Shown here piece by piece: positions 3,832 to 28,207 of a DNA stretch of 28,207 nucleotides. Source of the stretch: Planoprotostelium fungivorum (Eukaryota; Evosea; Variosea; Cavosteliida; Cavosteliaceae); the NCBI GenBank assembly GCA_003024175.1, contig MDYQ01000305.1, positions 1 through 28,207 of the forward strand, written 5' to 3'. The position numbers and the translations under genes are program-made. Within the stretch, counting starts at the first letter, position 1. Each line of letters begins with the position of its first letter. A model generated the notes under the pieces. It did no database searches and was not told the origin of the DNA. It saw only the letters and a list, made by a program, of their open reading frames with translations.

Positions 3832-6800
3832 CTAATCCGAAGACCCCTCTGCAGATGGCATGACATAGCCACCGTCCAACAGCTCCCCCCCCTGTTCGTA
3901 CCTCTTTGACTTGGGTGGATCAATCGATTGGGCCTCGATGTACTGCTCGTCCGTGGAGTTCTTCTCTTCACTGCAGTCGTGATCGTACCCTTCTTGTTTC
4001 AACTGGGCGATGCAAAAGTCGTTGGCGTGAGCCACCTCTGCATCTCTCTGTCTCTGGTGGCTGAGGGTCTCGTTGATCTCCACGAAGTCGGGGCGTAAGG
4101 ATCGATCGGATCTCCAGCATCCTGGAATGTCTTCAATCACACGATGATGATGTTGGTGTGGATGATGACGATGATGTTGATGATGTGGATGAGGGTGAAA
4201 TGATGATGAGCTGGTGACGGTTCACTCACTCTCCATGAGATCGATCAATACGGTTGGACTATCATGGGAGATGGGAAGACGATCGTGCTTGTGAACCACA
4301 CCCAGAGCTGCTTCCACTGGTGTCTTCTCCTCCCACGGTTCACGCACTTCTAACACCTCCCATATCACCACTCTGTCTCTCGTCATGTCTCGTTGTAGAC
4401 GATCACACTCACCCGAAAGAGAAGACGTCAGACTTGATGGAATACTCTCGAGATGTGATGGCTTCCTGCGTTGTAGATCAGTACAAGTCACACAAGTCAT
4501 CGTTGTTACCGGTGCCATCCATTTCAGTGGTCCAACTGCAGTGATGTTAGAAATTTGGTTAAAAGATGAATGAAATCTCACTCTTGGATTCCGTCTGGGA
4601 GGCTTCTTCTGTATCTTCTTGTTCTCTGGACAGACCAAAGTCAGCCACCTTTGCTTCTAGATGTCTCGTCAACTGTCACATGTCAGATGTACATTCATGG
4701 TCACAGAGAGAGACATACCAGGATGTTACGAACAGCAAGATCTCTGTGTATGATCTACTATCAGTCAGTATGCATTGACACAGGGGAGTGTACAGATGGA
4801 TGTACATCACCTTCTCCTTGTGTAGATGGAGCATGCCGAGAGAGATCTCGTTGAGAAACTTGTACTTCTCTTCGATCGAGCAGTTGACTCTACGCAAGTG
4901 ACTGTACAGTGACCCTCCTGAACAGTATTCTGTGTACTCTCATCAGATCATATCTATACAGATCATATCTATACAGATCTATGTATGGATATAAATATAG
5001 ATATATAGATGTGTAGATGCAAAGAGAGATGTGTACCTGTGACAAGAGAGACTGGCTGTGGGGGCAGAGTGAGACCAATGACTGAGAGAGAGGTGAGAAG
5101 AAGATAGAGAGGAGTGTGTGTGACTCACATGTGACAATGTTGGGATGTGCCTTGAGTCCTTGCAAGATGGACACCTGCTCTCTGTCACTCTCTCTCCTTC
5201 TCTCTGTCACACTCACTTCGTGCAGAAAGTCTTCCAGCTGCTTCTGTGTCACATGCTCAGCTCTCATCTGCTTCACCTGTACACACATGAGTGAGAATGA
5301 ATGACACAGGATGATGTACACACCGCCACTTGTGTCTCTCTCCATTTTCCCTTGTACACGATACCGAACGCTCCCGATCCAATCTACAACGCTCAGCCTC
5401 TCGAATTTTCATCGAAATCTCTCACTCTCTCCATGTCTTTGAGCTCTTCGTGATCGATCATGGATTTCTTGACGGTGGCAGTGTTGAGTTGAGTGATATC
5501 CACCATGGCATATTGTTCCTTGTACGCTTCGTTCTTCAGATGGTTCCGATACACGGCGAATACGATGATCATCACTACGAGTAACAAGACAAATGCAGCT
5601 GTCATCGTCATCATCATGCGATGATGATCATGAAGACTCACCGATGACTCCTCCGACTATGGCTCCAACTGGAATGACCTCGTTGGGGCTCGCCCTCACA
5701 GTCTCGTTCCTCGTTTGTCCTGCAGGTGCCAACAAGGGCAGACCCGCTGACTCATACTCTTGTATCTCTATGGATTCCATCACTTGTACCGTGTCTTCCA
5801 CTGATCCTTCGTTTGATCCGCCAGATGATGGTGGATGCACGTCGACCGTTGCGATGACACTGCCCGGTCTGTCTCTCGTCAGTGTTTAGGTGGGAAGAAT
5901 GGGCGGGAAAGTAGATGTGTACCTCGTGTTGTTGATGCTCAGTCGACTCTGTGTCACGTTTGTAGCTGCGGACAGCTTGGACAAGAAGTCAGTGGCATCG
6001 AATGTCTCGTAGACTAGGTCCAAGTGATACACGACCGATCGAACGGTCTCATTGCCGATGGCCTGGCAGGTTGTAGAGCAGCGCTGTATGTAAGCCCAGT
6101 CCACTGGACATCTCAGCGGATTGTGACTGGTACTACAATGCGTGAAATTGGGGAACGATGCCTGAGAGAGATGAGCGTTGTAGATGAGATGACGTCATCC
6201 TCACTGTGCGAGCCAGGGAGATGTTGTTGTAAGAGATATCGAACTGGTGGAGCATGGGAGTGAGTTTGAAAGAGGGAACGAGGCCAGAGAAAGAGTTTGA
6301 GCTGGCGTTCAGATGCAACAGCACGGGGAGACTGGTGAAATCTGGCAGCTGTCCGCTCAATCGATTCGAACTGATGTCCACCTGCCTTCGTTGTAGATGA
6401 TGAATAAAACAGGTGACGTACCATCTCTAATTTTTGACGGTTGGCGAGTGAAGGCATGGATCCAGTGAATCGGTTACCCCTGGTGACCGTGTCGGAATTT
6501 CCGTCGAAATTTCGGACGAGGAGCCCACCTGACGTTCAGATCTACAATGGACAAGAGGCTATTGACAAAGTTGACGTCACCCGTGAACATATTGTTACTC
6601 AGATCGATGTACTATTCTCTCATCAGATGATTCATTCATCTACAACGCACCTTCGGATCACTTCGAAAGACATCCACGTCTCCACTCAATCGATTGTTAC
6701 TGAATCTCTTTCAACTTGATCTACATCGTTGTAGATCGTCACCTCAGGTTCAGTGTATCCAGATAACGGAGGTTAAATATAGAATCATCGATGGGTCCCC

Positions 6801-9800
6801 ACAGTGAGTTGTTGGACAGATCGATGAACGTCAGATATTCGCCTGTTGTAGATCGTCAGTCTCGGTTGTCCCATTCCACTCACCCAAATTATCGGGTAAT
6901 TTAGACACGATCTGATTGTGACTCAAATCTAACGTCTGCAGCTGTCGCATCGAGGAGATGAATTCCAGGGATTCGGCGTACAACTGTGATGACGTCATTG
7001 TGACGTCATCACTCGTCACTCACGTTGTTTCGGCTCAGTCCCAAATGAGTGAGACGAGTGAGATTACCCATCTCCGCCGGAATGGGTCCTGATGAATATC
7101 AATCTATTGGGATATGTCGATCTACAACGAGTCGATGGAATATACCTGAGAAATGATTGTTGTTCATCAATAGTGTCTGCATGTAAGGCCAGATGGCCAC
7201 AGCATTCGTCACTTCTCCTTTGAAGTCGTTGTTGCTGTGAGATGTCAATAAAATGAAATAAAACATCATCACCTGATGTCTAACACTTCCAATCTGGACA
7301 TGAAAGCCCAGGCGATGGCCAATTCAGTGAACTGTTCCTGTCAATCTACAACGCTCCTCTCTCCTCCTCACGTGATTGTTACTCATGTTCACGTTGATCA
7401 AGTTCCCACAGTATCCCAGGGAATAGGGTAGTTGTCTACAATTATCAAATGACGTCATACATCTCTGATCTTACCTTATGAAATTGTTGTTCGACAGATC
7501 GATCGTCTGCAAGTAAGGCATGGCCAACATAGAGTCAGATACCTCCACGATACCACTCAAGTTGCATCCCTTTACAAGGAATCAGATGTCTTGTCTGCCT
7601 CAGATGACTCACAGATAGCCTGAGGACTTCGATGTTGTCTAGATAGTCGAACGCATCGATCAGAAGTTCACCACCCAGTGGATTGTTGGACACGTCGAAC
7701 ATCTTTAGCTTCTGCAGAGACTGAAGGATAGCCAGCTGACGAGGTGTCAGTGATGACGTCATCACACGTCATGGACTCACGTTGTTGTCGTAGTAGTTGG
7801 GACCTGCACTGCCGATGTTGTTGTCGTTCAATTGGAGGACAGTGAGGTTCTTGTACTTGACCCATTCCTTCCTCAGATATCCACCCAAGTTATTATTACT
7901 ATTTAAATCAATCTACAACGAGACCATCATGACGTCTCACCTCAGATAGAGATATCGTAGGTCACGTCCGAAACTCTAAGAAGCGTTAGGGCGGGAAAAT
8001 AAAAATTGGGACTTGAAATTGGGACTTACGGCAGGAATGAGACCGGTCAGATTGTTCTCGAAGAGACCGATGGTAGAGATGTTGGCCAGTGGATGGAAGT
8101 CAGGAATGCTCCCAGTCAGCTGATTACCCATCGCATTGAAGATCTACAACCAGTCAGCGTCTAGCCTCGATATGTCACGGAAATCTCACGCTCAAGTGGG
8201 ACATCTGTCCCACGAAGGTGGGAATCTCTCCGTGGAAATTAGAGAAACCTCCTTGAAATTGTACGAGATTGGACAGGTTGTTGAGGAATTGTAGATCGCC
8301 ACCCAATAGAGGGCAGTTGTTGACGTTGAGTGTCTGTATGTTGACGAGCTTCTGAAAAGTGATGGGAACACCTCCAGTGATATTGAAGTTCTGTGAGAGG
8401 ATCAAGTCTGGGGGAAGTCAGTGGTGGCCGGTTGTAGACGGACGATCACATCGAATCTGTGTCAGATCTCCCAATTCGGGCGGGATGGTTCCGGAGAATT
8501 TGTTATCTGGAGACGTGAGATACAAACAGACACACTCTAATTACCCGAGATGTACAATAGAATCAATTTGGAAAGTCGACCGAAGGCGGCAGGGATGCTG
8601 AATGACGTCATCATTCGTCACGATGACGTCATCCACTCACCTCCCCGTGAATTTGTTCTGAAGCATCTTGACGTTCTGCAGATTCGACAGGCTCCCTATC
8701 TCGTCTGGAATCTGTCCATTGAATTGGTTCTGTGTGGTTATCGTCAGTGTCGTAAGAGTAGAAGAGATATCATACCGAATTGATCCACAGTACGGTCAAG
8801 TTGGTCATTCCCTTGATCTCTGGTGACAGAGGACCACTCATCAGATTGCTAGAAAGATCAGACGACCATCTACAACGATGTAGATCACCGATTGACTCGG
8901 AAATCGACGAGCGTGGTCCTGCTCATGATGGAGCTGGGGATGTTGCCTGTGATTTGATTGCCTGATGATGTCATGATGACGTCATCATACGTCACATTCT
9001 CACCTGCGAATCTCATGATGATGATCTGTGTGTAATTGTAAAATACATCGGGAATCGTTCCTTCGAAGAAATTCATTCTGTTGTAGATGGTCAGTACCCT
9101 CCCTCTCGTTCTACAACCAGACATACCCCACGTCCAAACGGATCAGTTGTGTCATGTTATCGAAGATCCCCGCCAGATTTCCACCCAATCTATAGTCAAT
9201 GTTACCACTACAACTCTCCTTTCATTCCTCACCGATTCGAACTCATCGTAAAGAACATCAGTTGTGTCATTGTAGAATAGCTGAGAGGTATGTTCCCCGT
9301 CAATCTGTCTCTGCGTCAGTCTCTATGCACTCTGTCCCTCTATAATGTCTCTCTCACTTGTTGTCATCCAGTCGAAGTGTAGTGATGTTGTTAGAGTTGT
9401 AGTTGGGCGGTAGTGGCCCATCGAGGATGTTCTGAGGGTGATGAGAGACAAGAAGAGAAGAGAAGGGAAGAAGAGGAGAGAAGAAGAGGAGAAAAGAAGA
9501 GAAGAGAAAGGCACCTGTCGTAAGTCGAGAGTGGTGAGAGAGGGAATAGTGAAGATGTAAGAGGGGATGTGACCCGTAAATCTACATCATGGTTGGTGAT
9601 TCTCAATGAGATAAGAGGGCTCGCTCACCGATTCCTCCATAAGGATATGGTTTCTATTTGATACATGTTTTTAAATAAAACTGGAGTGGAATCAGAAACG
9701 TCCATGTGAAGATGGAGAAGAACGAAAATGGATATCATACATGAGAAGCTTCCGTTCAATTGATTGTCGTTCAACATGAGAGATTGAAGTTGGACGAGTT

Positions 9801-10157
9801 GATCCCATGTTGAAGGAATCGGGCCTGTGATATTGTTCGTGGAGAGATCCAGATTGGTGAGGTAAGTGAGTTCTCCTAAACTATTCGATAGAATACCCGT
9901 CAGGTTGTTGTGTGATAGGTTGATCTGTGTAACATTGCCATCCAGATTGCAGTTGACACCATTGAAGGAACACACGTCCGATGTGTTCCAATTTGTATTG
10001 TTCTTCCAATAATCGCCTGGTTGTCTCAGTCTGCAAGCGAACCATTCCCCCTCTCACCATTTGTCGATGTGTATAGTTCTCTCAACACATCAATGTCCAG
10101 TGCCACACAGTATTGTAAAACTCCAATCAGAACCAACCATCTGTAGGCAACCGTCAT
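3832..10157 (-). CDS. LRR receptor kinase with non-canonical HLD catalytic loop (LRR1)
   Basis: Single-pass receptor, 1432 aa. Exons (minus, 43): 10157-10058, 10016-9741, 9680-9629, 9581-9515, 9431-9358, 9304-9233, 9189-9127, 9077-9004, 8961-8889, 8848-8776, 8729-8641, 8597-8545, 8506-8450, 8407-8190, 8143-8030, 7975-7941, 7898-7781, 7735-7613, 7569-7475, 7435-7372, 7337-7273, 7234-7146, 7088-7024, 6983-6884, 6842-6743, 6699-6651, 6611-6529, 6479-6422, 6381-6205, 6161-5923, 5868-5642, 5598-5426, 5383-5324, 5276-5217, 5174-5129, 5081-5037, 4929-4794, 4743-4719, 4672-4582, 4535-4510, 4465-4413, 4372-4230, 4130-3832. Phase is kept at every junction. Order: signal peptide (about 1-20), Cys-containing cap, plant-type LRRs (LDLSTNNITGPIP style) to about 880, Cys cap and N-glycosylated linker, membrane helix about 1042-1064, then kinase: IGSGAFG 1106-1112, Lys1127, HLDLAVRN with Leu1221 replacing Arg of HRD, DFG 1240-1242, PLKWMAPEA, SDVFSFG, CW..RP; Tyr-containing tail. 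Kinase is TK/TKL-like. Ligand unknown. Confidence 0.9.
4930..5036 (-). repeat. Kinase intron with tandem ATCTATACAGATCAT units
   Basis: This is the longest intron of LRR1 (107 nt). It contains a duplicated block close to CAGATCATATCTATA followed by alternating AT-rich sequence (TATAAATATAGATATATAGA). It lies between the exons encoding the kinase hinge and the region before the catalytic loop. It lacks the TCTACAAC word. Confidence 0.6.
5902..5910 (-). promoter_or_regulatory. TTTCCCGCC word in LRR1 intron
   Basis: TTTCCCGCC on the minus strand inside the 54-nt intron 5869-5922. The word matches the classical E2F/DP binding consensus (TTTSSCGC); binding here is inference. Other copies: 7990-7998 (LRR1 intron), 11790-11798 (GLE1 intron), 20905-20913 (intron of the 623-aa gene), 27328-27336 (LRR2 intron), and 23875-23883 in a RAD17 exon. 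Confidence 0.45.
6162..6204 (-). repeat. LRR1 intron carrying both palindrome words
   Basis: This 43-nt intron contains GATGACGTCATC followed at once by TCATCTACAACGCTC, so over half its length is the two recurrent intron words. It separates the last LRR exon from the Cys-rich cap exon of LRR1. Confidence 0.75.
6720..6735. repeat. 16-bp near-palindrome in LRR1 intron
   Basis: TCTACATCGTTGTAGA on the plus strand, one mismatch from the perfect palindrome TCTACAACGTTGTAGA, within the 43-nt intron 6700-6742 of LRR1. Confidence 0.8.
6984..7023 (-). repeat. LRR1 intron with two TGACGTCA palindromes
   Basis: This 40-nt intron contains TGACGTCA at 6990-6997 and 7001-7008. TGACGTCA is the full CRE palindrome bound by bZIP factors in other eukaryotes; whether it is bound here is unknown. 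Confidence 0.8.
7899..7940 (-). other. Motif-bearing intron present in LRR1, absent in LRR2
   Basis: This 42-nt phase-2 intron contains CGTTGTAGATTG and ACGTCAT. The paralogous LRR2 exon 27874-28026 runs straight through the same position (27908/27909), with flanking exon lengths conserved exactly (35 + 118 = 153 nt). It is a clean intron presence/absence difference between paralogues. Confidence 0.85.
8598..8640 (-). repeat. LRR1 intron with two TGACGTCA palindromes
   Basis: A 43-nt intron with TGACGTCA at 8603-8610 and 8624-8631, together occupying much of the intron. The homologous LRR2 intron (27221-27261) also has two copies, at 27230-27237 and 27251-27258, so the arrangement is conserved between the paralogues. 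Confidence 0.8.
8869..8884. repeat. 16-bp near-palindrome in LRR1 intron
   Basis: TCTACAACGATGTAGA, one mismatch from the perfect palindrome, central in the 40-nt intron 8849-8888. The homologous LRR2 intron carries a similar palindrome at 26977-26992 with a different surrounding sequence. Confidence 0.8.
9078..9126 (-). other. 49-nt intron identical in LRR1 and LRR2
   Basis: This intron matches 26734-26782 of LRR2 at 49 of 49 positions. The exon before it differs at about 6 of 63 sites and the exon after it at about 20 of 74. It contains GTTGTAGA near its start and TCTACAAC just before the acceptor, an inverted pair that could fold the intron ends together. Confidence 0.9.
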
Positions 10158-10527
10158 CTCATGCTCTGTGTGGGCAAACCACAAACTCCCGCTTCCAGTT
10201 TCGGAGCTGTTGCCTGGCAGCCCCACCCTACTTGTCATCTCAATCGGGTGAAACACATCCGCAGTCAAATATATGAGAGTTCGCAGTCTATCAATTGTTC
10301 CTGTAACCTGTACGTAAATGGAAAGTGGTGTCTTGAATCTATGATATGTTGACTTCCATAGCATGCTACCCAGAGACTTCATTCGCGTGTCTGGCGGTCG
10401 AACATCAGATGGCACCATCCGATCGTTTCATGTGATGGAGAAGGGGAGAAGGTTTTCGGACGTGCAGAAACCGACGACATCACGAGCATCCTTGAACTCG
10501 ATGAACGATGTTGACGCGATGAACTCT
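10158..10527. promoter_or_regulatory. Spacer between GLE1 stop and LRR1 start
   Basis: 370 nt between two same-strand genes. It must contain the GLE1 3' end and the LRR1 promoter and 5' UTR. No TATA-like box, intron palindrome or extra gene is evident; the frames crossing it are readthrough of flanking exons. Confidence 0.4.
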
Positions 10528-12904
10528 TTAATGTAGATTGAAACCATCCAAGGGAGCGATCTTTCCATTCTTGATCTGTTTGTCCACGAGAGTCTGCAGC
10601 CGCACCTGATCGCGACGTCAGCTTCCCCCTCTCACTTCTCCCACCTTGGCCGGACCATCTGTGATGTTTGGCATCATCACCTCGCTGATGTACAGGGCGA
10701 TCTAGCATTCTCAGTGGAATCTCGATGAGTTTTCTCACCTTGTGGAACTGCTTCCCGTAAGACTTTCCCATCTTGTACCCCGTCACGTTCAAGAATGTTC
10801 CCAAGATCTGAATTCCATAAATACTCCATCTACAATGTTGTATACGCTCACCTCCGCCGTGTGTGGATGGATGGGGGCATTCAGAATACGAGCGATCCAC
10901 TTCCAGGCCAAATCGATGCCAAAAATAGATCTCACATTGGGTAGTTCTGTCTGTAGGACTGCCGAAAATAGAGCCAGGTGGCCTCTCATCCTCTTCAAGT
11001 AAGTCTCTTCCGTTTCATACGGAGATTCCGCGGAAGTTCCGAGCCTCTTGTACCCCGCAGCATCGTAGGAGGCTGGTGACACCTCAGTCGGGAAATTTCA
11101 TCCAGATCTCACCAGGATCCGTCAGAACAGGGTACCGCGGTATCGTGTAGGGGCAAGATGCGTAGCAGTAAGCTGAAAATAGCTCCGAGAGTTCGCTAAA
11201 TTTAGAGCAGAGGATGCTGACTACTGCGGCGAAACCGAAGCAAGATTGAATGTGGGAGGAGATTTGGAAATTAGCTTGTTCCTGAAGAGATGTCAGAGAG
11301 AAGTGAGGGAAAACTGGTGGGAATCTCACGAGAATCTTCGTGCAGATGAGATCTTGACAGTAGATGGTGGCCGCACGTGTCTTTGCCCCTTGTAGAACGG
11401 TCTCCAATTGGGCTGCCTGTTTCCATATTTCAACTCTTTTTTCTCATCATCAAGGAGATGATCATGTGATGTATTGATGAGATGATGGTGTGATGATAAT
11501 GTGTGACAAAGTGATGACGATCATCATCACATCATCGTCTTACCTTTTGTTTCACTTGCTCTAATGTATTCGATATCTGTGATATAGGCATGTTGATCTT
11601 GGGGAAGAAGGTCTTCTTTAGATCTGGGTTCGATAGTGCAGCTGCGACGGCTGCCTCTCTCGTCGTGTGATACAATTGAAGTAATCTCTCCGGATCATCC
11701 GTTGATTTCGGCGTTGTAGATGGAGAATTCATCGCGGGAGGGGGTGTCGTCTTCTTGACTGAGACGTTTCAATTTCAAATTTCGAAAGTGGCGGGAAACT
11801 CACCGGGTGCTGGCTGGGCCGTCACGGGTGTCTTTGGTGTTGCAATCGGTGTCGCCTAGATATTTCTCAGAAAAATCCGTCATACGTCTCACCTCTTTCT
11901 TTCCTTCTTCCTTCTTCTTCTCCTCTTCTGCTTTCTTCTTCTCATTGTTCACCCTCTCTTCTTCTCTCTTCTTCTCCTCACTCTTCCTCTCTTCCTCTCT
12001 TTCCATGTCTCTCAGTCTGCGCTGGAAATTCGCGTGGAACTGTCACGTTCAGCCGTGTACAAGAAGGGGTCATCACATCGTCTCTCTCCCGGAATAATTC
12101 GTCCACCTCTCGATCGATTTTTCCGGTCTCCTCTTTCCTTATGCACGTCAGAGAAAAAATTCTGAGAATATTCTGCGTCGACGAATGTACATACCGAGGC
12201 TCGGGCCTGAAAGCGTCCAAATAGATCCTCTGATCGTTCATGATGTCCAGTCTGACGTCCTCCATCAGTCTTGTGATGCGATCTTCGACAGCTCGACTCA
12301 GCCTCTTTGTGGGTTCAGCGTCTACAACGTTGTAGATGGACTCACCCCGGCCTTCTCTTCTCGCTCTTGTTCTCTCTGTGCGAGTTCTGTGGTGGCTCGA
12401 TCGGTGATGGCGACTCCCTCTCGGTCTCGATTCATTTCCTGAGTTGAAGATGAGAAGATGGAGATGAATTGGGAGGCATCACCGCCAGACGACTTTGATC
12501 TAAGAATGAGCCGTATGTGTCGATCTCATCGTCATCGGAGTCACTGTTGGGAGCGGTGAAGACATTACTTCGCTGCATTCGAGTTTAATGATGAAACGAA
12601 ATGCACATGTGATGTTCGTGACACCACGTCACATATTGAAAGGAAGAAATAAACACGTACGGTACTGGCTGGTGTTCTCGCTGGTGAATCTGATTTCTGT
12701 GAGGATGATGTTGGGTGTCGCAGTGATGTAAAGAACATGATTGAGCGGATCATTCTATTTGATATAATGTTTGTATTCACCTGTGTCAACTACTCTGAAT
12801 GGAGAGGCCAATACGGACGGATCAGGAGTAGATAATGTGATTGTCTCTCCCTCAGGAGAAGCCCATCCTCTATAAGGGGTCCGAAACGGAGAATACCGAT
12901 TCAT
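10528..12904 (-). CDS. GLE1: GLE1-like mRNA export factor
   Basis: Fifteen exons (12904-12781, 12689-12661, 12572-12483, 12438-12346, 12304-12195, 12137-12077, 12021-11893, 11855-11804, 11758-11544, 11416-11330, 11281-11113, 11072-10852, 10807-10739, 10680-10645, 10605-10528) give 520 aa in frame. A low-complexity N-terminus is followed by a highly charged Lys/Glu coiled coil (about residues 140-212), a Pro/Thr linker, and a C-terminal GLE1 domain recognisable from the pattern YLKRMRGHLALFSAVLQT, IDLAWKWIARILN and GKSYGKQFHK. GLE1 sits at the cytoplasmic face of the nuclear pore and, with IP6, activates the DEAD-box ATPase DBP5 during mRNA export. The protein is shorter than human GLE1 (about 700 aa), mainly at the N-terminus. 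Start chosen as the only ATG giving correct phase into exon 2. Its 41-nt intron 12305-12345 holds a perfect TCTACAACGTTGTAGA palindrome. Confidence 0.88.
12321..12336. repeat. Perfect 16-bp palindrome in GLE1 intron
   Basis: TCTACAACGTTGTAGA, inside the 41-nt intron 12305-12345. On the coding strand the first 25 nt of this intron, donor included, are identical to the first 25 nt of RAD17 intron 24497-24534 although the genes are unrelated. Confidence 0.9.
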
Positions 12905-13168
12905 AATGGGAGTGTTCTGTGTATGCGTGTTCGTGTGATGATGTGCAACCGAAGCATCCGTTGTAGAGCTTCGCAAGAGTGGTGGTGACAACCTCCACGG
13001 ATGCACTTGGCAACTTGTTAACGATCGCAGGAGTTTTAGAAGATGGATTCATATAGCTAAGAACATATTTATTTGCCGAGTTGAGGAACAGGCGATGTCT
13101 GTCCCTTCTTCTCAGCGAGTGGGATCTGGTTCGTCTCACTGATGTGCTGAATTCTACATCAGTTTCGT

Positions 13169-13393
13169 TCACAGGTGATTTGCGTAAAGGTCGTACATCT
13201 ATCATGATGCTGTGTGATGACATTACAATGAGAAAAGATTCACCTTGCTGACGTCTGCGTTGTGAACTCCAGCGGCTTTCTTAGCCTCTAAGTTGTTTCC
13301 GTAACCCAGACCAGTGCCAAATCTCGAGTTGAGGAGGAAGGCGGCCATGCCGACGGCACCTACGGCGAGGAGGGGGAATCTGAGAGCGACCAT
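13169..13393 (-). CDS. Small 59-aa hypothetical protein
   Basis: Two exons (13393-13244 and 13198-13169) joined by a 45-nt GT-AG intron encode 59 residues. The N-terminus reads MVALRFPLLAVGAVGMAAFL, an amphipathic/hydrophobic stretch with few acidic residues, followed by a Gly/Asn-rich turn and a short polar tail ending YDLYANHL. This resembles small mitochondrial inner-membrane or signal-anchored proteins in general form only; I do not recognise the family. It lies 295 nt from the divergently transcribed metallophosphoesterase and 264 nt upstream of GLE1 on the same strand. The second exon is only ten codons, so an alternative 3' end is possible. Confidence 0.6.
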
Positions 13394-15020: not shown

Positions 15021-15260
15021 ATGCCTCCTGGATGAGCACACACATCGAAACGCTCACAGACACACCGCGATGATCATTCGGGGCGTTGACGGTGATACGC
15101 CTGTCGTGTTGTGGAGGGAGACGCAGTTTTAGGTGTGTTGTGGAACCGTGCTGTCTATGACTCGCATTCTACCGGCCCTTCAGCGGTTAAAGATTTAGGT
15201 CTCGCAGTATCTGTCTTCCTCTATAACGAGTTCATTCCTTATTTCAAAAACGGCACCACG

Positions 15261-16040: not shown

Positions 16041-16099
16041 TAAATCGACACATTGTCTCATCTGAGATGAAGATCGAGTATCATCGAGTGTCTTCTTTA

Positions 16100-16898: not shown

Positions 16899-16907
16899 GA
16901 TTGGCTG

Positions 16908-18196: not shown

Positions 18197-20481
18197 ATGT
18201 TACAGACCGAGACCATCAGAGGGGGTGACCTCTCGACACTTCGGTCCATCGCTCAAGAGTTGGGGGTGGAAGATGAACAACATTCGAAAGAAGATCTGGA
18301 GACATTTCGACGTCGTCTGCTCTACGTGTGGCGTCAGAAACTGGAGAGAGAATTGAAATCGATCGATAATCAAGAAATCAAAAAGATGACACCTCTCGTG
18401 CAACCAGACGAACCATTCATCTCAGTTTGCTTCCACAACATACCTTATCATCTTCAGTGGAAAGTGGAGGATGAATCACTTCGTCTGATCGATAAGGTGA
18501 TGGATGATGTCCTCGATAGGAGAGCACGAGACGCCAGAAGAAGAGCTTCTGACGGAGACACAAAGTGAGTCCAATTCTTTCATCTTATCACAACGACATC
18601 CTCATCTTCAAACAGAAAAATTGAAGAATTTCGACCGGCCAAGCGACCGAGAGGAACAGATTTTCACACCGATTTCGCGGTTGACTGTACGCCGTACGAG
18701 GACCTCAAGATGCTGGCTGATCCATCGACTCGTAATCGATCAGAAGAAGGCATATACGACGAATATCTAGACCTCGTTCCTTCGTGAGTCTGACACTCTC
18801 CATCTCATGAGAAACTCGTGACCACCATCGTGAAAGAGACGATGAGAAGATTGATCGTTGTAGATACGATAAGATACCAACGACCCTGAAACCGATTGGC
18901 TCGACCGAGCAGGCCAGCATCATGATGAGCCGGAACAAGTGTTGGAATTGTGAATCAACCGATCATAACTTGAGAGAGTGCAGGGAGGTGAGAGGCATTC
19001 GTGGAGAGTTTCATCTACAACGCGGATTCATTCTTTCAGCCCAGAAACCAGGCGGCCATCGCTCGAAACCGTTTGGAATTCCTGGAATCGAAATTAGCAG
19101 AGGAGAGGTGCGTTGTAGATCGAAAATTTGGCGAAAAGTCACACGTGGGACAGATATTACGAAGAGAAGAAGGGACAACAGACTGATATCCTTTCTATGT
19201 ACGTGTTTGTTTAGAATTTTCCTTGACTTTTCTAACGTACGAGGGATGCTCCATCCGGGTATAACAGGGATCAAGGGCAAGTCTTTTTCGCATTCGCATA
19301 TTTCAGACCTCACAACGAGATAACATCATCACTCATACATCTACAATCGATAACAGAGATGACATCGATATTTATCTATCCTCTGTAGAGATCTTGATTC
19401 ATCAAAAGAGATGCCATTCACTGACACCCATCAGACCCAGGTTGACACGAGGTGAAATTTCGCGGAAATATCACCACCCGTACGAACCACCTCATGCGGA
19501 CGATGTGTACAGATGAACAAGTGAAGAAGGGTGCCGCTGGATTAGACATATTAGAAGAGGAGAAGGACTACAAAGAGCAGGAGGAACGTCTAGAGAGAGA
19601 AGAGAAGGTGAATCTCTTCTTCAAATCTTCGTGACATCAATAGGAGAGAGCCAGACTGATGGAGGAACTACCTTATGCCAACGGTAATCGATGGGAGGGT
19701 GAGAAAATTCGAAGAGATATCGAGGAAAAATCTGAGAAAGGTAGACGAACGGAATCGGTCGCGAAATTTCGACTCGTACTCGCGTAGAGAAGGAGAGAAT
19801 CTTCCAGTACTTTTCTCTGGAAATTCCGAGAGGAATCGGGAAGAGAGGAGAGACTACCCTCCTCGTAACGATACACGTGAAATCTCCTTCGTATTTCACA
19901 TCTGACGCGTTGTAGACGGTCTGTCTTACGGTCAGTACCAGCAGCAACCTCAAGAGATGAATTATCCGATGCAATATCCTCTTAGCCAGTATTCAGCGCA
20001 AGAGACGGTGCAATACCAATCGTGGCTGGGGAATCCACAGTATTACGGAGGCTCTTATGCCAACGTCCAAGCCAGTGCACCTGTTCTGTATCCTCCCACC
20101 TATCAACAAGTGCAAGCCGAACGGACGAACAACACTGTAAGAGATGACAGAAGGGATGATACAAGAGACAACAGAAGGGATGATAGAAGAAACGATAGCA
20201 GAAGAGATGATAGAAGAGACGATAGAAGAGACGACAGTAGAAGAGATGATGGACGAGAAGACATTAGAAGAGATGATAGAAGAAACGATAGCAGAAGGGA
20301 TGATAGAAGAGACGACAGCAGAAGGGATGATCGAAGAGACGATAGAAGAAACGACAGCAGAAGAGAAGACATTAGAAGAGAAGACATTAGAAGAGACGAC
20401 AGCAGAAAGGATTACAGAAGAGACGAGAGGAGAGAGATCGATGACGTAGAGATGCAAGTAGAGGAAGGGGAGATAAAGTAG
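18197..20481 (+). CDS. ZCCHC8-like zinc-knuckle protein with Arg/Asp-rich tail
   Basis: Secure exons are 18197-18564, 18616-18783, 18864-18987, 19040-19107, 19139 to about 19195, and the last exon 19936-20481. A helical N-terminal region leads to a CCHC knuckle (CWNCESTDHNLREC) followed by PRNQAAIARNRLEFL and DRYYEEKKG, the same order as the knuckle and flank of ZCCHC8 in the nuclear exosome targeting (NEXT) complex and related PSP-domain splicing proteins. The expected PSP domain should follow, but exon structure between about 19195 and 19935 could not be fixed; acidic helical exon sequence (DEQVKKGAAGLDILEEEKDY) is visible at 19512-19609. The tail is Tyr/Gln-rich, then Arg/Asp repeats, then an acidic end. 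Introns include a 31-nt one (19108-19138) and one whose acceptor is GTTGTAG/AT (18784-18863). Role in nuclear RNA surveillance is inference. Confidence 0.7.
20130..20445 (+). repeat. Arg/Asp repeat-coding purine tract
   Basis: Imperfect reiteration of AGAAGAGATGAT / AGAAGAGACGAC-type units encoding RRDD/RRND repeats in the last exon of the zinc-knuckle gene. The tract is open in several frames on both strands (including a 169-codon minus frame), a by-product of the repeat. RD-rich low-complexity tails are known from RNA-processing proteins. Confidence 0.85.
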
Positions 20482-20498
20482 AATGTATTGTACAAGAA

Positions 20499-22945
20499 TC
20501 AAGATGGGGGTGCAAAGGAGACCTGCTCGTATAACGAAAAGTTGTTGTAGAGGTTCACGGCCGCATTCGTGTTCATAGTGGATACAAAGTTGGACTGGAC
20601 TGTAGAGGCTCCCCTCGCCTGTAACGATGTCAATGCTATGCTCTCTCTATCTCATGCTTCATCAGGTTGATCGTGATGTGATGATGATCTGATGATGATG
20701 TTGGACATGGTCAAATGAACTCACGAGATAGTATTGAGTTATCGTTGAGTTGATGGTGACAAACTGCTGGATTCGAGTTCCAGAGAAATCTCTGAGGGTG
20801 AGAGTACAGTTGTAATAGTTGGTCATCGCAGAGGGGTAGGGTGTGTTACTACCCGGACTTCCCGCCATGACTCGTTGTAGAGTGAAAGTCGACGGAAAAT
20901 TCTGGGCGGGAAAACAGAATACGGTAGAAGAGCTGGCACAGAACCCTTATTACGTCATTATACGTCACGGTATGATATCTCACATTTGGATGTCACAGAC
21001 GATTGAAAGTTATTGTTAAAGAAGCCGTAATCCTTGGAATTACAATTGAGGAAATAAGTCGTGTTCAAGAAAGGTGTGCTCGTTGTAGTCTGTCGAGGTG
21101 AGTGCCGGCTCAAACATTCGTGCCACCGGCCTCACCTGGGATGTCAACAAAAAGGTAGAATTCGTTGGAATTCCGGTGGTGTTGATGTACATGTACTGAT
21201 TGCTCATGTTCACAGCGATGAGCCCGGAAGGGTCGATGAAATTTCCATTTTGAAGGTAGTACAGACTGACAGGAGGTGTCAATTTTGACAGATCGATCAC
21301 GATGATCAACGGTGCCGCGGCTGTCGACGTCAGATTTTCTCGGAAATTTCTACTTTTTTTCACCGGCCACGTTACCCAGGTTCAAGAGAGTGTTCTCGTT
21401 GCTCGAACTGTCTTGAGGTCCAACGGAAAACTGGTAGGTTTTCTGTGGAAAACTCGTGGAGGGTGTGTAACCGGGTACCTGGTGGACGGTTGGTTCCCGC
21501 CAAAACGGACGATTCGAAATTCGAACACGCACCGATAACGTCTTCTGATCGTTAGCGGACCACTGCCACACGTTCCAAGAACTCGTCACGTAGGCCGGAT
21601 AATTCACGGAAGAATTCGTCGTGTTCGCTGTCACGTGTCATCTACAACGAGCGATGTCCTCCTCTCACCCTGCCTAGGTATGTACAACGCGATAGTCCCG
21701 TTGTAGATGGTCACCGGTGATGAGAAAGGATTAAAAGAGACGTTACACTGCACGCCACCCTGGTTATGATCGTCCGAATCGAAGCAAAAGGTGTCTGCGA
21801 TACGTCAGATACTCCACGGAATCTCCACTCACTGCTGGGACAGCCTCCGTTTCCCACGGTACACTCATCGTACGTACACACCACCGTCTTCAAGTCGAAA
21901 TTGGTTTCGAGAGGATTCGGATCTAAGCAAGCGTATCGAGCGGGGCAAGATGACGTGTTCACCACGCACAAGTTGTAGACACACCTCCACTCGAACATAC
22001 CACTGATGAAATCAACTTGGCGAGTTGTAGACGGACTTCACCTCGTATTCGTGTCGTTGCAGAAGAAGGGAGCGGTACAGTTGGCACCAGCACACTCGTC
22101 CACGGTGTATGTGACGTCCAGGGAGAGCTGAGGAGCTCTCGCTGAGATTTCGGTCTGACCATCTTGCACACTGCTGACCGAGACGATGAGTACGATGGAG
22201 TTGTTTTTACGCCACGAAGAGAGTCCAACGATCTGTTAGGATTCAGATCGATGAGATGAGATGGATGAGACCTCTTGAAGGATGGGGGTGAGATCGGATA
22301 GAGGGGAGCCGGCGTAAGATGAGAGGTCGAGGGTGAACGGAACAGAAGCGTCGGTGAGGGGGAGGGTGCTGACACAAAATGAAGACGATTGCAATGCGGG
22401 GGCATTTCCTGCTTTCTCTCCGGAGACGGAGAAAGAGATGAGACCTCCTCCGGAGATGATGGAAGAGAAGTTCAGGGCGGCGGACTGTTTCAGGATGATG
22501 AGAATCTGAGAATTCGCGCTTCTAATGTCTGACGAGATCGAGATGTTTGAGAGCAGAAGAGGGTCGGAGATGAAGGTTCTATCGGTGTGATTGACGCTCT
22601 CACCGTTATGGTGGCATTGAAAGGGATGGTGATTCCTGAGAAGCGAACAGCCGCCCAGCCGTTATAGCTGGAGATAGTCTGTGTCCCAGCGGTGATGGTG
22701 TCGGTTCCAACGATGAAGTTTCCATTGGCGCCGAAGCATGCGCTCGTGACCGAATAGGCTTGTGTCGATGGAGATGTGACATTATATGAACTCTCGAAGA
22801 TACTGTCAGTCGCGCTAAAGACGGCAGTATATTCGTCCACTGCGATGGTAGCTGATTCAAATGAGTGATTTGAATGGAGAGGACGAGGAGAGGTCAATTA
22901 CACACAGTGTATGAACAGGAGGAGACAGAGGTAAGATAACCTCAT
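20499..22945 (-). CDS. Secreted Cys-repeat and beta-domain protein, 623 aa
   Basis: Eleven exons (22945-22906, 22851-22604, 22505-22272, 22232-22042, 22002-21833, 21794-21669, 21627-21364, 21320-21136, 21089-20997, 20901-20725, 20642-20499) keep phase throughout. Signal peptide MRLSYLCLLLFIH; then a beta-rich domain (about 30-235) whose SYNGWAAVRFSGITIPFNAT and WRKNNSIVLIV elements resemble carbohydrate-binding beta-sandwich modules of the choice-of-anchor/DNRLRE kind (weak); then Cys repeats (DECAGANC, CVYNLCVVNTSSC, CTYDECTVGNGGC) close to the CTxDxC repeats of Dictyostelium surface proteins; then a long Asn/Ser/Thr-rich, N-glycosylated beta region. No membrane or GPI tail, so probably extracellular matrix or secreted adhesin; function unknown. 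Exon 21794-21669 contains a 45-nt exitron candidate. It converges on the zinc-knuckle gene with a 17-nt gap. Confidence 0.8.
21670..21714 (-). other. Exitron candidate: in-frame intron-like segment in an exon
   Basis: On the coding strand this 45-nt block starts GTGACC, ends CTAGGCAG, contains TCTACAAC and a facing GTTGTA, is a multiple of three and has no stop. It looks like the neighbouring introns but must be translated in my model, because splicing it would leave a single-base exon before the next intron. It could be an exonised former intron or an alternatively spliced segment coupled to another acceptor. Confidence 0.5.
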
Positions 22946-23246
22946 GCTGCTCGTGCGGATGGACAGCGGGCGATTCTTAGGACAGGGATTTGAGATACGA
23001 GAAAATTCAAATTGAATCGAATCTTCTGGGCGAACAACCCGCCCTCTTCTTTCATTGATTGTATGAATTGAAACAGTCTCTTCACGTCCACAACCCTCAT
23101 GAACATCCAAAGCAGCCTGCGTTTATGAACTGCCGGGTTGGATGTGATGAAACTGAACAATTATAATTCTTCTATTTTATTGTTGGATTCTCGGAAAACG
23201 CTTGCATATGATCTCATCGGATCCCATACAAGACTGACACAACAAC
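22946..23246. promoter_or_regulatory. Divergent promoter between secreted-protein gene and RAD17
   Basis: 301 nt between the start codons of two divergent genes. It contains an AT-rich block (TATAATTCTTCTATTTTATT near 23161) that may serve as a core promoter element. No intron motif occurs here. Minus-strand frames in it have no protein character. Confidence 0.45.
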
Positions 23247-25260
23247 ATGGACGATGACGATGATTTCTTGGACGTTCCACTCAGCTTTGTCAAGACTCCA
23301 GACCGACCGAAGAAGAGGAGAGCTGAAACTGAGGTACAGACGAATCGAAATGGAAAGGTCCAACGCAAGAAGCCTGCAACTCTCTCTTCGATTACTGCAG
23401 TAAGAGATAAGAAACAGAAAAAGTCCACAGAGGTAGATCTTTGGACGCTGAAACATGAACCCAGAGAAATAGTGAGTATATATCTGTAGGATTCGACAAA
23501 AAAAATAGAAGTGGATGTATAATCACCTTGAATCATTCTTCAACTCACCGATTGCAGTCACAATGCGTAGTTCAACCCGACAAAATCAACGAATTAAGAG
23601 ACTGGATGCAGAAGCATCTCCGGAGAGAACCAGCTCGAAGAGTTTTACTCGTCCATGGTCCCAGCGGAACAGGTGATGTAATCAATCATCCACATCAATT
23701 ACACATCTGCAACCATTTCATCTCATCCATCCACAGGCAAAACCGTCATGATCAAGCTCTTGGCCAAAGAACTGAACTTCTCTCTGTCAGAGTGGACCGA
23801 ACCAGTCAACGTCGAGTGGAAGAACGCACGAGGAGATTACCTGGGAAGCGATGGTTCCGCCCAGATGTACAGCGTTTCCCGCCAAAAACAATTCCGAGAA
23901 TTTCTGTACCAGTCGAGAGCCTACGTAGACCTGTGCAGTCCAGATCGAACGCGGCTCGTTGTAGTGAGAGAATGTCCCGAGGGTATGACCACCGAGGTCA
24001 GGAGAAGATTCTGGGAAATTATAGAAGAATATTCCAGGAAAGCTGCCAACCCCATGATTCTCATCATGACGACGGAGAACGAGAAGAAAGAGATCAGAAT
24101 GCCTGATCACGTGACCCCCTACCTCCAAACACTGGCGTGAGTGCGTTGTAGATGGAAATATCACTGAAATATCCAGCATCAATCAGGTCATCAAGACGAA
24201 GATGAAGAAATGTCTGACGGACATTCTATCGACCGAGTCGATGAGTGTCCCAGATGATGTCTTTGAAGATATAATACAGTCAGCCGAGGGGGACGTAAGA
24301 TCGGCCATCAACAATTTACAGATGTACATAATCGGAAAACCGGTGAAAACTCGACGAAAAGAGAAAACTGAATGAAAACAGCTGCGTACAGTGGGTGCAA
24401 AGAAACCGAAACAGAAGAAGAGCAAGAAGGAAGAACCAGAAAAAACACACAATCTGAACATATTTCACGCCGTAGGGAAAGTCCTACACAACAAACGTGA
24501 GTCCATCTACAACGTTGTAGATTGACCCTCCCAGGCATCGAAGACGGAGGAGGGAACAACATCCCTCGAACCAACGTGGAGAAGCTCATGGAGAATCTTC
24601 CCATAGACCCGCAGCTGTACCTCTACTGGGTTCATCAGAGCTACCTCTCCTTCTGTGATGACGTCACTGTCTTATCCAACATCGCAGAGGACTTCAGCGC
24701 CGCCGAGGCCTTCACTTCTACCTCTGGCTATCACGGTTTCGAGCCAGATCGGGTGACTCTTCTTCTCATCTTGCATGTCTAAACGTCTTTCAGTCGGGCA
24801 ACACACCCTCTTCGATATGGACATCGGCTGCATGTCGTTCTTTCATGCTGCACAACGTGGACACGCAGGTGAAGGGGAGGATGATGACCTTCCATCGTCC
24901 GGAGCTGCTCACCTGCCGTGCATCGGCCGTCCAAAACAGGAGGAAGATGATGGACTATGTAGAAAACTGGCGGCCTTCAGACTATGCATCGGCCGGGGGC
25001 GAGATGGTGGACTCTCTGCCGTATCGAAGTCGAGTCGAGAGGAGGAACAATGTGTTGAAGAATCTCGTGCAGATGTCCAGAAACAGACGCAGAGAAGAAG
25101 GAAAGGTGGAAGATGATGTCGGTGGTGAGATGGAGGTGAGACTGATATGATCTCGTGTGAAACTGAGAGAAGACAGATTCTGGAACAGCTACCCGGGCAA
25201 CTTCCTTTCAGTTGGGAGAAGGTCAACAGTGTCTTGGACGAAGACGACATCGAAGAATAA
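23247..25260 (+). CDS. RAD17: RAD17-like checkpoint clamp loader
   Basis: Eight exons (23247-23471, 23558-23672, 23737-24136, 24177-24342, 24382-24496, 24535-24752, 24794-25135, 25177-25260) give 554 aa. An acidic, then basic N-terminus is followed by an AAA+ clamp-loader ATPase: Walker A GPSGTGKT at 109-116 (split by an intron), a Walker-B-like strand RLVVVRECPEG where most RAD17 proteins carry ED, a sensor strand NPMILIMTT, and a helical lid (DDVFEDIIQSAEGDVRSAINNLQ). The C-terminal half has the RAD17 arrangement (IFHAVGKVLHNK, then a long helical region) and ends in an acidic peptide. RAD17 with RFC2-5 loads the 9-1-1 clamp at DNA damage and activates ATR signalling. The intron 24497-24534 is nearly half palindrome. 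The TAA stop is embedded in AATAAA (25256-25261). Confidence 0.9.
24506..24521. repeat. Perfect 16-bp palindrome in RAD17 intron
   Basis: TCTACAACGTTGTAGA within the 38-nt intron 24497-24534, extended by flanking A and T to an 18-bp perfect palindrome. It occupies nearly half of the intron. Confidence 0.9.
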
Positions 25261-25684
25261 ACCTCATGTTCTTCGTGTGTATCGCATGCACAGGAGACAC
25301 CTGCGGCGCCATTGTTCGCAACGTGATGCGAAGGTCGCACAAACGAGTATGCATGTCGTTCTCATAAAGATGGCATAAGGCTTTGTCACCACACGTTCGC
25401 CCGATGAAGAGAGAAAATATGCCGTGAGAAATGGAAGGCTTCACGAGAAAGGAAAGAGAGAGCGGTGCATCGAACCTTTAGAGGATGAATAAGGTGGAAG
25501 TAGGTGTGTAAAAGCCACCCGCGATCTTGGTGTGGGCAGAGTGAAGTGGACTGGTCGCAGTTCGAATCGATAAATCGGTTGTTCACCTCCCAACGGAGAA
25601 TGCGAGAGAGGAATCTCCATGACAACTGAATGTTCGAGAGAATGTGGAAGCATTGATTTGTGTGCGCCAGCGGATAGAAGAAGC
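25261..25684. promoter_or_regulatory. Spacer and LRR2 promoter region
   Basis: 424 nt between the RAD17 stop and the LRR2 signal-peptide ATG. Frames in it lack protein character. An upstream in-frame ATG at 25619 would extend LRR2 by 22 residues ahead of the signal peptide and is therefore less likely as the start. Confidence 0.45.
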
Positions 25685-28207
25685 ATGAGGCTGACGCTGT
25701 CTCACTGGGTGGTTCTTCTGGCCCTATGCCAGTGCTGTGTGGGATTGGACATCGACGTGTTGAGGGATCTGTACAACTCGACTAATGGTGAGATAGATGG
25801 ATGGACGGAGAGGGAAGGGAGGTGTCTGACGTTGATAGGTGACTTCTGGAGGAATAATACCAACTGGAACACCAGTGATGTGTGTTCCTTTAATGGTGTG
25901 ATCTGCAATCTGGACGGCTACGTTACACAGATCAAACTACCACACAACAACTTGACTGGTGTTTTATCGAGCAGACTTGGAGATCTTTCTAATCTCACAA
26001 ATCTGGATCTTTCCACGAACAATATCACAGGCCCGATTCCTTCAACATGGAGTCAACTCTTTCAACTCAAATCTCTCATGTTGAACGATAATCAACTGAT
26101 CGGGTCATTCTCCTGTGAGTTCCAGCGACTGTCATATGACCCATTTCTGATTCCATCCCAGTTTTATTCAGTAACATGTATCAAATACAAACCATATCCT
26201 TATGGAGGAATCGGTGAGCGAGTTCTCGCCTCTCACACGGTACATCCATGGGATCTATTAATTCTGAGCAGATTTACGGGTCACATCCCCTCTTACATCT
26301 TCACTATTCCCTCTCTCACCACTCTCGACTTACGACAGGTGCCTTTCTCTTCTCTTCTTTTCTCCTCTTCTTCTCTCCTCTTCTTCCCTTCTCTTCTCTT
26401 CTTGTCCCTCATCACCCTCAGAACATCCTCGATGGGCCACTACCGCCCAACTACAACTCTAACAATATCACTACACTTCGACTGGATGACAACAAGTGAG
26501 AGACAAGATAGACATTGTAGAGGGACAGAGTGCATAGAAGCTGACACAGAGACAGATTGACGGGGAACATACCTCTCAGCTATTCTACAATGACACAACT
26601 GATGTTCTTTACGATGAGTTCGAATCGGTGAGGAATGAAAGGAGAGTTGTAGTGGTAACATTGACTATAGATTGGGTGGAAATCTGGCGGGGATCTTCGA
26701 TAACATGACGAATCTGATCCAGCTGGACGTGGGGTATGTCTGGTTGTAGAACGAGAGGGAGGGTACTGACCATCTACAACAGAATGAATTTCTTCAACGG
26801 AAGCATCCCCGATGCATTCTACCACTTCACTCGCATCGCAGTAATGAGATTCACCGGTGAGACCGTGACGTATGATGACGTCATCATAACTTGATCAGGT
26901 AATCAGTTCACGGGAAATATTCCCAGATCCATCATGAGCAGGGCCACACTGCAAGATTTTCGAATCAATCGGTCAGTCTACATCGTTGTAGACGGCCACC
27001 TGACTCTTTCAGTAATCGCATGAGCGGTCAGTTGTCCCCAGACATCACAGGAATGAAGAACCTCGTTCTGTTCTGGATTTACGGGGTGAAACTCACGTGA
27101 AATTTCACACTCAGGACTGATCGTTCTACAGAACCAGTTCAGTGGACAGATTCCATACGAGATCGGGAACATGACAACTCTGCAGTACCTCATGGTGATG
27201 CAGAACAAATTCACCGGAGTGTGAGTCGATGACGTCATCGTGATGACTGATGACGTCACAGTATACCTTACACCCTGGGTAGACTTATCAATCTAAAATT
27301 ACTGTACCTGTCAGGTAGGTCTTACGGTTTCCCGCCAAAACTGATCCGTTTAGATAACAAATTCACCGGTGTCATCCCCCCCGATCTCGGTAACCTCACG
27401 AACCTCACAGGTCAGTCCATCTACAACGAGCCACTCCTGACCTCACCAGATCTCATCTTGTCCCAAAACTACAACCTCGTCGGTGGTGTTCCCAGAACAT
27501 TCCAGAATCTAGGCAAGATCCAGACACTCAACGTCAACAATTGTCCCAAATTGGGAGGCGATCTGTACTTCCTAGACAATCTCACCACCGTCGTACAATT
27601 TCAAGGAGGTTTCTCTAATTTCACCGGACAGATCCCAGCCAGCGTGGGACAGATGTCCCACTTGAGCGTGAGATTTCCGTGACATTTCGAGGCTAGACGC
27701 TGACTGGTTGTAGATCTTCAATGCGATGGGTAATCAGCTGACTGGGAGCATTCCTGACTTCCATCCACTGGCCAACATCTCTACCATCGGTCTCTTCGAG
27801 AACAATCTGACCGGTCTCATTCCTGCCGTAAGTCCCAATTTTCAAAATTTCGACGGAATGTAACGCTTCCCAGAATTTCGGAGTCGACTTGAGGAATCTG
27901 GACGTCAGCAGTAATCAATTGGGAGGTTATCTTAGAAGAGAATGGACTCGTTACAAGAACCTCACCGTACTCAAATTGAACGACAACAACATCGGCAGCG
28001 CAGGTCCCAACTACTACGACAACAACGTGAGTCCATGACGTGTGATGACGTCATCACTCACACCTCGTCAGCTGGCTATCCTTCAGTCTCTGCAGAAGCT
28101 AAAGATGTTCGACGTGTCCAACAATCCACTCGGTGGTGAACTTCTGATCGATGCGTTCGACTATCTAGACAACATCGAAGTCCTCAGGCTATCTGTGAGT
28201 CATCTGA
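25685..28207 (+). CDS. LRR receptor ectodomain, paralogue of LRR1, cut by window end (LRR2)
   Basis: Seventeen exons are visible: 25685-25787, 25839-26114, 26162-26213, 26272-26338, 26422-26495, 26556-26627, 26671-26733, 26783-26856, 26899-26971, 27013-27085, 27132-27220, 27262-27314, 27354-27410, 27450-27667, 27714-27827, 27874-28026, 28072-28194, then an intron entered at 28195. All exons except the first have the same length as their LRR1 counterparts, apart from 27874-28026, which equals two LRR1 exons fused because one intron is absent. A signal peptide (MRLTLSHWVVLLALCQCCVG) is followed by the same Cys cap (FNGVICNLDG) and plant-type LRRs as in LRR1. Whether LRR2 also ends in a kinase lies outside the window. 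It is head-to-head with LRR1 across about 15.5 kb. Confidence 0.9.
26734..26782 (+). other. 49-nt intron identical to LRR1 intron 9078-9126
   Basis: Identical at all 49 positions to the homologous LRR1 intron, although the following exons (26783-26856 against 9077-9004) differ at about a quarter of positions. Contains GTTGTAGA and TCTACAAC in inverted arrangement. Confidence 0.9.
26857..26898 (+). repeat. LRR2 intron with TGACGTCA palindrome
   Basis: A 42-nt intron containing TATGATGACGTCATCATA, a palindrome extended well beyond the CRE core. The LRR1 counterpart (8962-9003) has the same core and the same length. Confidence 0.8.
26977..26992. repeat. 16-bp near-palindrome in LRR2 intron
   Basis: TCTACATCGTTGTAGA, one mismatch from the perfect palindrome, within the 41-nt intron 26972-27012. 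It is in the same relative intron as the LRR1 palindrome at 8869-8884. Confidence 0.8.

Follow-up and report, generated by a model that had tools for sequence, protein, structure and literature searches.

A recurrent 8-mer in the tiny introns of Planoprotostelium fungivorum: a candidate DNA-binding site within gene bodies

In the genome of Planoprotostelium fungivorum (assembly GCA_003024175.1), the 28,207 nucleotides of contig MDYQ01000305.1, which were analyzed at their full length and are called the window here, carry one 8-mer, TCTACAAC/GTTGTAGA (the word), again and again in short introns of unrelated genes. Introns this short (~40 nt) are generally considered to contain splicing signals and not much more. 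The preliminary description of this DNA had listed introner-like introns, a DNA-binding site placed in introns, and an RNA hairpin as readings. We favor the second and give an even chance to the word being the core of a candidate DNA-binding site of ~17 to 19 bp in gene bodies, held in introns. Strand-symmetric flanks, fixed dyad spacing, retention between paralogues, and a composite with a second palindrome favor this reading.

The enrichment of the word, in the window and in the genome, was confirmed. Exactly 41 copies, the number estimated beforehand by eye, were present in the window (16 TCTACAAC and 25 GTTGTAGA), the highest count of any 8-mer there, compared to a mean of 0.81 and a maximum of 4 in 100 dinucleotide shuffles. 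The assembly of 36.86 Mb in 471 contigs, of which the window is one (labeled C265), contains the word 17,887 times (8,938 + 8,949) and the reversed control 4,005 times (2,020 + 1,985), and the window density is about three times the genome mean. A shuffled-intron control, proposed together with the genome-wide count, bore the enrichment out: in an unbiased count of intron-interior 8-mers (introns of up to 70 nt, identical introns counted once), the word occurred 42 times, with 0.5 expected from shuffled interiors, and formed one of the two outstanding groups.

Gene models came from a spliced gene finder trained on the window together with 17 further loci, of which 16 measure 10 kb and one 1.3 kb; these are the same loci that it annotates. 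The introns are its predictions, with a median length of 43 nt and mostly GTGAG-like donors. The predicted proteins were clean, namely, leucine-rich-repeat (LRR) receptor kinases, GLE1, RAD17, a short-chain dehydrogenase, and a phosphoesterase; GLE1 and Rad17 were assigned by Pfam, and the LRR proteins read through cleanly. The finder fused GLE1 with LRR1, and these were split by hand for the locus-permutation counts and left fused in the per-gene correlation. LRR2 runs past the window end into contig C244, the overlap of C265 and C244 lying inside the gene. Locus L058 overlaps the window end by ~1.1 kb, so that LRR2 is represented by two models and a few introns are doubled in the per-gene, intron-feature, and poor-locus/CpG counts. 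The predicted L058 protein (L058:1-1100 is the window-end overlap) repeats one LRR stretch, perhaps an assembly artifact. N was read as A, which concerns a single N of L007 and a long stretch of L061, a locus that entered no count. The labels "rich" and "poor" for loci are our own.

Of the window copies, 32 fell in predicted introns, as had been estimated, 6 in coding exons, and 3 in spacers. All 18 sequences together contained 48 intron, 30 exon, and 11 spacer copies over 34.0, 109.7, and 45.7 kb, corresponding to 1.41/kb in introns compared to 0.27 in coding sequence and 0.24 in spacers. The intron excess was smaller in the 17 loci taken without the window (16 copies in 26.7 kb of introns versus 32 in 134.6 kb of other sequence, P = 0.003). 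Exonic copies of the 7-mer core are probably codon-driven, since 62 were sense and 7 antisense, a skew that Tyr-Asn codons would give; the beta-helix-like protein of L065 is an example. Word introns were no longer than others (median 42 versus 44), and insertion into existing introns was rejected on this ground. The 77 word introns were spread 20/30/27 over gene thirds, which led to the rejection of a first-intron or promoter-proximal element, and neighboring word introns were not in excess (21 adjacent pairs versus 18.7 expected, P = 0.26). No promoter enrichment was observed: for 51 genes, the upstream 250 nt (12.75 kb in total) held one core copy and none of the palindrome TGACGTCA described below; among up to ~2080 6-mers tested for a promoter motif common to word genes, the best (P = 3e-5) was not significant. 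In LRR1, the core was present in 16 of 43 introns, close to the 15 of 42 previously listed as carrying the word or core at the acceptor; in 5 of these 16, the core lay within 4 nt of the intron end (read from the list).

The arrangement of the sites was informative at the level of the DNA strand. The 16-bp dyad TCTACAACGTTGTAGA, an inverted pair of words sharing the central CG, was found at 681 places genome-wide (control 0), and the opposite arrangement, GTTGTAGATCTACAAC, nowhere in the assembly. Twenty dyads were fetched with 400 bp of flanking sequence to either side; they were not a random sample but came from the contigs at the head of the list. Of these, 19 lay in predicted introns and the twentieth had no gene call; 17 of these 19 introns were 35 to 48 nt long. 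Among 654 distinct introns of up to 90 nt (identical introns counted once), 54 had the core: 10 as a dyad, 1 as two outward sites, 15 in sense only, and 28 in antisense only. The pattern TCTAC-N6-GTAGA occurred in 10 of the 654, the half-sites of the dyad being 6 nt apart in 10/10 with no other spacing up to 40, and never in exons or spacers. Of the five 16-bp palindromes previously named, those at 12321-12336 and 24506-24521 were perfect, and those starting at 6720, 8869, and 26977 proved to have one mismatched central pair.

Both orientations relative to transcription were used, as had been noticed at the outset: single sites were sense in 21 cases and antisense in 28, and a further 13 antisense sites form the acceptor itself. 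The flank profiles of sense and antisense sites were alike, TCCAT before and GAGCCA after the site (r = 0.80, with 0 of 2000 permutations as high; identical introns counted once, and 3 of the 49 single-site rows being dyads with a broken outer arm), and the extended motif reads approximately TCCATCTACAACGAGCCA. Because a non-palindromic motif is used both ways with one flank profile, the word is most likely recognized as double-stranded DNA. An RNA hairpin, proposed earlier as an aid to intron recognition, does not account for most sites: 43 of the 54 word introns were single-site, and their pairing partner was no better than in shuffled sequence (length 3.09 versus 3.29). The fixed spacing of the dyads also speaks against a hairpin, which was rejected for the single sites and is possible for dyads.

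The sites in the window are as follows; no strand is given for features recorded without one, and "partner" is the palindrome TGACGTCA.

3793-3822, plus strand: two word copies between two convergent predicted stop codons, possibly 3' untranslated region
4392-4399, minus strand: single sense site, LRR1 intron 4373-4412; kept in LRR2
4470-4477, minus strand: single sense site adjoining the acceptor, LRR1 intron 4466-4509
5383-5390, plus strand: single antisense site forming the acceptor GTTGTAG/A (slash, splice junction), LRR1 intron 5384-5425; kept in LRR2
6177-6184, minus strand: single sense site beside a partner (6190-6197), LRR1 intron 6162-6204
6390-6397, minus strand: single sense site, LRR1 intron 6382-6421
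6639-6646, plus strand: single antisense site adjoining the donor, LRR1 intron 6612-6650; kept in LRR2
6720-6735: dyad with one central mismatch, LRR1 intron 6700-6742; perfect dyad in LRR2
6845-6852, minus strand: single sense site adjoining the acceptor, LRR1 intron 6843-6883
6990-7008: two partners, LRR1 intron 6984-7023
7121-7128, plus strand: single antisense site, LRR1 intron 7089-7145; kept in LRR2, intron pair 50% identical
7345-7352, plus strand: single antisense site, LRR1 intron 7332-7371; kept in LRR2, pair 67% identical
7450-7457: partner, LRR1 intron 7436-7474
7754-7761: partner, LRR1 intron 7736-7780
7912-7919, plus strand: single antisense site, LRR1 intron 7899-7940 (intron missing in LRR2, present in LRR3)
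8143-8150, plus strand: single antisense site at the acceptor, LRR1 intron 8144-8189
8431-8438, minus strand: single sense site, LRR1 intron 8408-8449; kept in LRR2, pair 74% identical
8603-8631: two partners, LRR1 intron 8598-8640; both kept in LRR2
8869-8884: dyad with one central mismatch, LRR1 intron 8849-8888; kept in LRR2
8977-8984: partner, LRR1 intron 8962-9003; kept in LRR2
9080-9117: two outward-facing sites (9080-9087 and 9110-9117) in one LRR1 intron, 9078-9126
12321-12336: perfect dyad, GLE1 intron 12305-12345
18857-18864, minus strand: single antisense site at the acceptor, gene 18197-20183, intron 18784-18863
19014-19021, plus strand: single sense site, gene 18197-20183, intron 18988-19039
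19112-19119, minus strand: single antisense site near the donor, gene 18197-20183, intron 19108-19153
19909-19916, minus strand: single antisense site at the acceptor, gene 18197-20183, intron 19877-19915
21641-21648, plus strand: single antisense site, gene 20499-22945, intron 21628-21668
22024-22031, minus strand: single sense site, gene 20499-22945, intron 22003-22041
24145-24152, minus strand: single antisense site, RAD17 intron 24137-24176
24506-24521: perfect dyad, RAD17 intron 24497-24534
26743-26780: two outward-facing sites, LRR2 intron 26734-26782
26876-26883: partner, LRR2 intron 26857-26898
26977-26992: dyad with one central mismatch, LRR2 intron 26972-27012
27230-27258: two partners, LRR2 intron 27221-27261
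27420-27427, plus strand: single sense site, LRR2 intron 27411-27449
27707-27714, minus strand: single antisense site at the acceptor, LRR2 intron 27668-27713
28046-28053: partner, LRR2 intron 28027-28071

The paralogues LRR1 and LRR2 share 36 intron positions, and their introns are related by descent. In introns of up to 90 nt that are at most 92% identical, a cut that was our choice, 7/7 LRR1 words were kept in LRR2 compared to 17/128 of the remaining 7-mers in those introns; from LRR2 to LRR1, 7/8 words were kept compared to 17/117 other 7-mers. One intron pair was only 50% identical and still kept the word. The words thus seem to be held in introns by selection. The two genes also form an inverted pair (8887-9583 and 26270-26973), in which near-identical tracts (234 nt at 99%) adjoin diverged sequence, a pattern such as gene conversion would leave.

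A third paralogue, LRR3, bears on the proposal that the word marks introners or other mobile elements, tiny transposon-like units that insert in genes and become or enter introns, with the palindrome as their terminal repeats. Thousands of clustered copies would suit such a family, as would the 18-mer GTGAGTCCATCTACAACG, found at 78 places (control 0) and called intronic in 18 of 20 fetched copies. At 21 intron positions common to LRR1, LRR2, and LRR3, however, the word was present in LRR1 and LRR2 only at 9, in LRR3 only at 2, and in none at 10; since 11 of the 21 differ in the word and keep the intron at the same codon and phase, words appear to arise and disappear inside old introns. The only variable intron, LRR1 7899-7940, has no counterpart in LRR2 and is most simply read as a loss there, because LRR3 has an intron at that position. 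The dyad has no fixed offset, starting 4 to 16 nt into the intron in 17 of the 19 dyad introns, with the two remaining starts at 26 and 30 nt (read by eye), which also counts against introners, as do the unremarkable length of word introns and the retention of words under divergence. Clustering of the introns by sequence, suggested earlier, gave almost no further similarity: after masking of the motif and the splice ends, the 56 word introns outside LRR2 (up to 70 nt, identical introns counted once) had a mean pair score of 7.25 compared to 6.64 for shuffled introns, and only 2 of 1,540 pairs scored at least 20 (0 in shuffles) and none 24. No empty site at which target-site duplications could be compared was found. 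The introner family was therefore rejected, on the common intron positions of one gene family and the missing similarity outside the motif, and we regard it as improbable.

The second outstanding intron-interior 8-mer was TGACGTCA (26 versus 1.6 expected), which we take to be the exact palindrome of the cyclic AMP response element (CRE), the ATF-CREB site bound by bZIP proteins. Its copies in the window and the 17 loci numbered 32 in introns, 4 in exons, and 0 in spacers, a bias stronger than that of the word. Genome-wide, GATGACGTCATC was found at 993 places (control 4), and the joined form of both motifs, TCTACAACGATGACGTCA, at 27 (control 0). In 58 gene models, the rates of the word and of TGACGTCA were correlated (rho = 0.38, P = 0.003). 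A weaker group was formed by a third palindrome, GAAATTTC, with 0.31/kb in introns versus 0.03 and 0.04 in exons and spacers, respectively. TCTACAACCCGCCA, the word followed by CCGCCA three times, was seen at 3793-3822 and in one L065 intron and is possibly another composite.

The partner recalls the M26 heptamer of fission yeast, ATGACGT, which is bound by Atf1-Pcr1, and the sites might accordingly serve meiotic recombination or gene conversion, bound by bZIP-like and other proteins. Eighteen intron copies of the partner read ATGACGTCAT and contain this heptamer, and the near-identical tracts of LRR1 and LRR2 amid diverged sequence would fit. Nothing, however, ties the tract ends to words (no statistical test was made), and the intron bias would be left unexplained; we consider this role to have little likelihood.

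Word introns are clustered by gene: their number per gene model was more uneven than in all 5000 simulations. Three window genes with 29 introns had no word, nor had 306 introns of 10 of the 17 other loci (L004, L006 to L011, L014, L015, and L017) or the three introns of the short L016. On contig C1, no word intron was found among 73 at 20-28 and 100-108 kb, compared to 15 of 35 at 184-192 kb, and before 144 kb lay none of its 20 dyads and 2 of its 34 GATGACGTCATC sites. The 49 dyads on ten contigs, counted without C10, showed overdispersion at scales of 10 to 100 kb, with a variance-to-mean ratio of 1.42 to 2.47. Chromosomal domains of word-rich genes are likely but not proven. A CpG methylation domain was rejected, as CpG ratios of 0.79 to 0.94 indicate no strong depletion.

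Regional differences of this kind, and a correlation across 24 loci between word rate and exon CpG ratio (rho = 0.44, P = 0.03), could also mean that the word simply reflects composition, codon usage, or repeats, or that the assembly mixes two organisms. This is very improbable given the 0.5 copies in shuffled intron interiors compared to 42 observed and the reversed controls, which were far below the counts of the word, the dyad, and GATGACGTCATC. As to a mixture, codon usage of rich and poor loci correlated at 0.95 and their splice signals agreed, the change in density lies within contig C1, near 140 kb, and GLE1 was found once; a two-species assembly was rejected on this single copy of the one gene tested.

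An RNA-level role is the alternative that the intron bias brings up most directly: the word would act in the pre-mRNA as an intronic enhancer or regulated-splicing signal, for which the Mer1-dependent enhancers of yeast offer a comparison. The word is scarce outside introns, 9 of the 13 antisense sites that form the acceptor have TTGAC or CTGAC, which is branch-point-like, just before it, and a branch-like signal was found in 58% of word introns compared to 35% of other introns of rich loci. On the other side stand the non-palindromic single sites, which occur in both orientations with the same flanks and have no hairpin partner. Donor scores were no weaker in word introns (4.32 versus 4.5, P = 0.49), and the word as a helper of weak splice sites was rejected on that result. 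Splicing does not require the word, because only 4 of 466 introns of poor loci have it. Weighing strand symmetry above intron bias, we keep a splicing element as an unlikely alternative that still deserves attention.

The reading as a DNA-binding site has several observations to contend with. Intron bias without clear spacer enrichment is easier to explain by an RNA-level role: spacers of rich loci held 6 core copies in 17.0 kb compared to 9 in 34.0 kb for poor loci, and coding exons of rich loci showed no clear excess (6 in 15.7 kb of the window versus 24 in 94.0 kb elsewhere). Four of the six rich-locus spacer copies lay no more than 110 nt beyond a predicted stop codon, a pattern compatible with a gene-body element although the number is small; the other two lay 12 nt before a predicted start codon and 314 nt from a gene. 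Retention of words rests on a single paralogue pair, and between the same two genes, the 7-mers TGACGTC/GACGTCA were kept in 6 of 8 cases and lost in 2. When whole genes were permuted, without L016 and models with few introns, the between-locus excess of the word was weak, not reaching significance with the window (P = 0.136) and having P = 0.026 without it, and the clustering of TGACGTCA between loci had P = 0.17 and 0.12, respectively.

If the word is a DNA-binding site nonetheless, a protein would probably bind double-stranded DNA, one copy at each single site (roughly TCCATCTACAACGAGCCA) and two at each dyad, sometimes joined by a second factor on TGACGTCA. The sites would probably act from within transcribed gene bodies, and as coding exons may offer little free room, they would gather in 40-nt introns. 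Only some genes, grouped along chromosomes, would be marked in this way, and the sites would not be promoter elements. Their action may be on the chromatin or transcription of the host genes, for instance, by permitting expression in an unfavorable region, and the gene sets may correspond to chromosomal domains. A more specific version, in which the two palindromic motifs form a gene-body address code, maintained by selection in 40-nt introns of neighboring unrelated genes, absent from promoters, and recruiting a dimeric DNA-binding complex that marks these transcription units as a chromosomal domain, is tentative and in our view rather doubtful. In one sampled locus, as many as 43% of the introns (15/35) carry a specific strand-symmetric motif. 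If the reading holds, tiny introns would be a place for DNA-level regulation, and their large number in a compact genome would be partly explained.

Other features of the sequences are recorded for completeness. The open frame 19906-20481 contains a segment rich in Arg and Asp, encoded by repeats in 12- and 15-nt steps at 20115-20405. The window's left end has a repeated 72-nt unit (374-445 and 808-879) and 36-nt inverted repeats (456-491 and 764-799). Fourteen matches to U2 small nuclear RNA above the family cutoff were found, in L062 and at 13 further places; like the 5.8S matches and the introns, they mark the genome as eukaryotic.

No title about the motif was among the matches listed in the literature for the word or for intron palindromes, and comparison has to be made with systems of other kinds. 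CRE sites have the same exact core as the partner, which is in excess here (14 versus 1.01 expected in the window, and 32 of 36 copies in introns); unlike sites enriched in promoters, it lies in introns, with none in the upstream regions of the 51 genes. The MSL recognition elements of Drosophila are sequence-specific sites on the X chromosome and resemble the word as sequence-specific sites within a chromosome region; they differ in sequence, and evidence of a sex chromosome or dosage role is absent here. Among introners, 72 of 177 families had terminal inverted repeats, and as here, many introns share sequence (Gozashti et al. 2022, PMC9860276); introners, however, are described there as found by similarity at both intron ends and as creating introns, while in P. 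fungivorum the motif alone is common and the introns appear older than the words. The nearest functional parallel may be the Periodic An/Tn Clusters (PATCs) of Caenorhabditis elegans, described as non-coding DNA able to prevent transgene silencing and likewise placed in introns with many sites per gene (PMC7725773). The sequences are unlike: no run of four A or T occurs in the two main motifs (periodicity was not computed), and where PATCs are periodic A/T runs, the introns described here carry two specific palindromic motifs, whose function would be comparable by analogy only.

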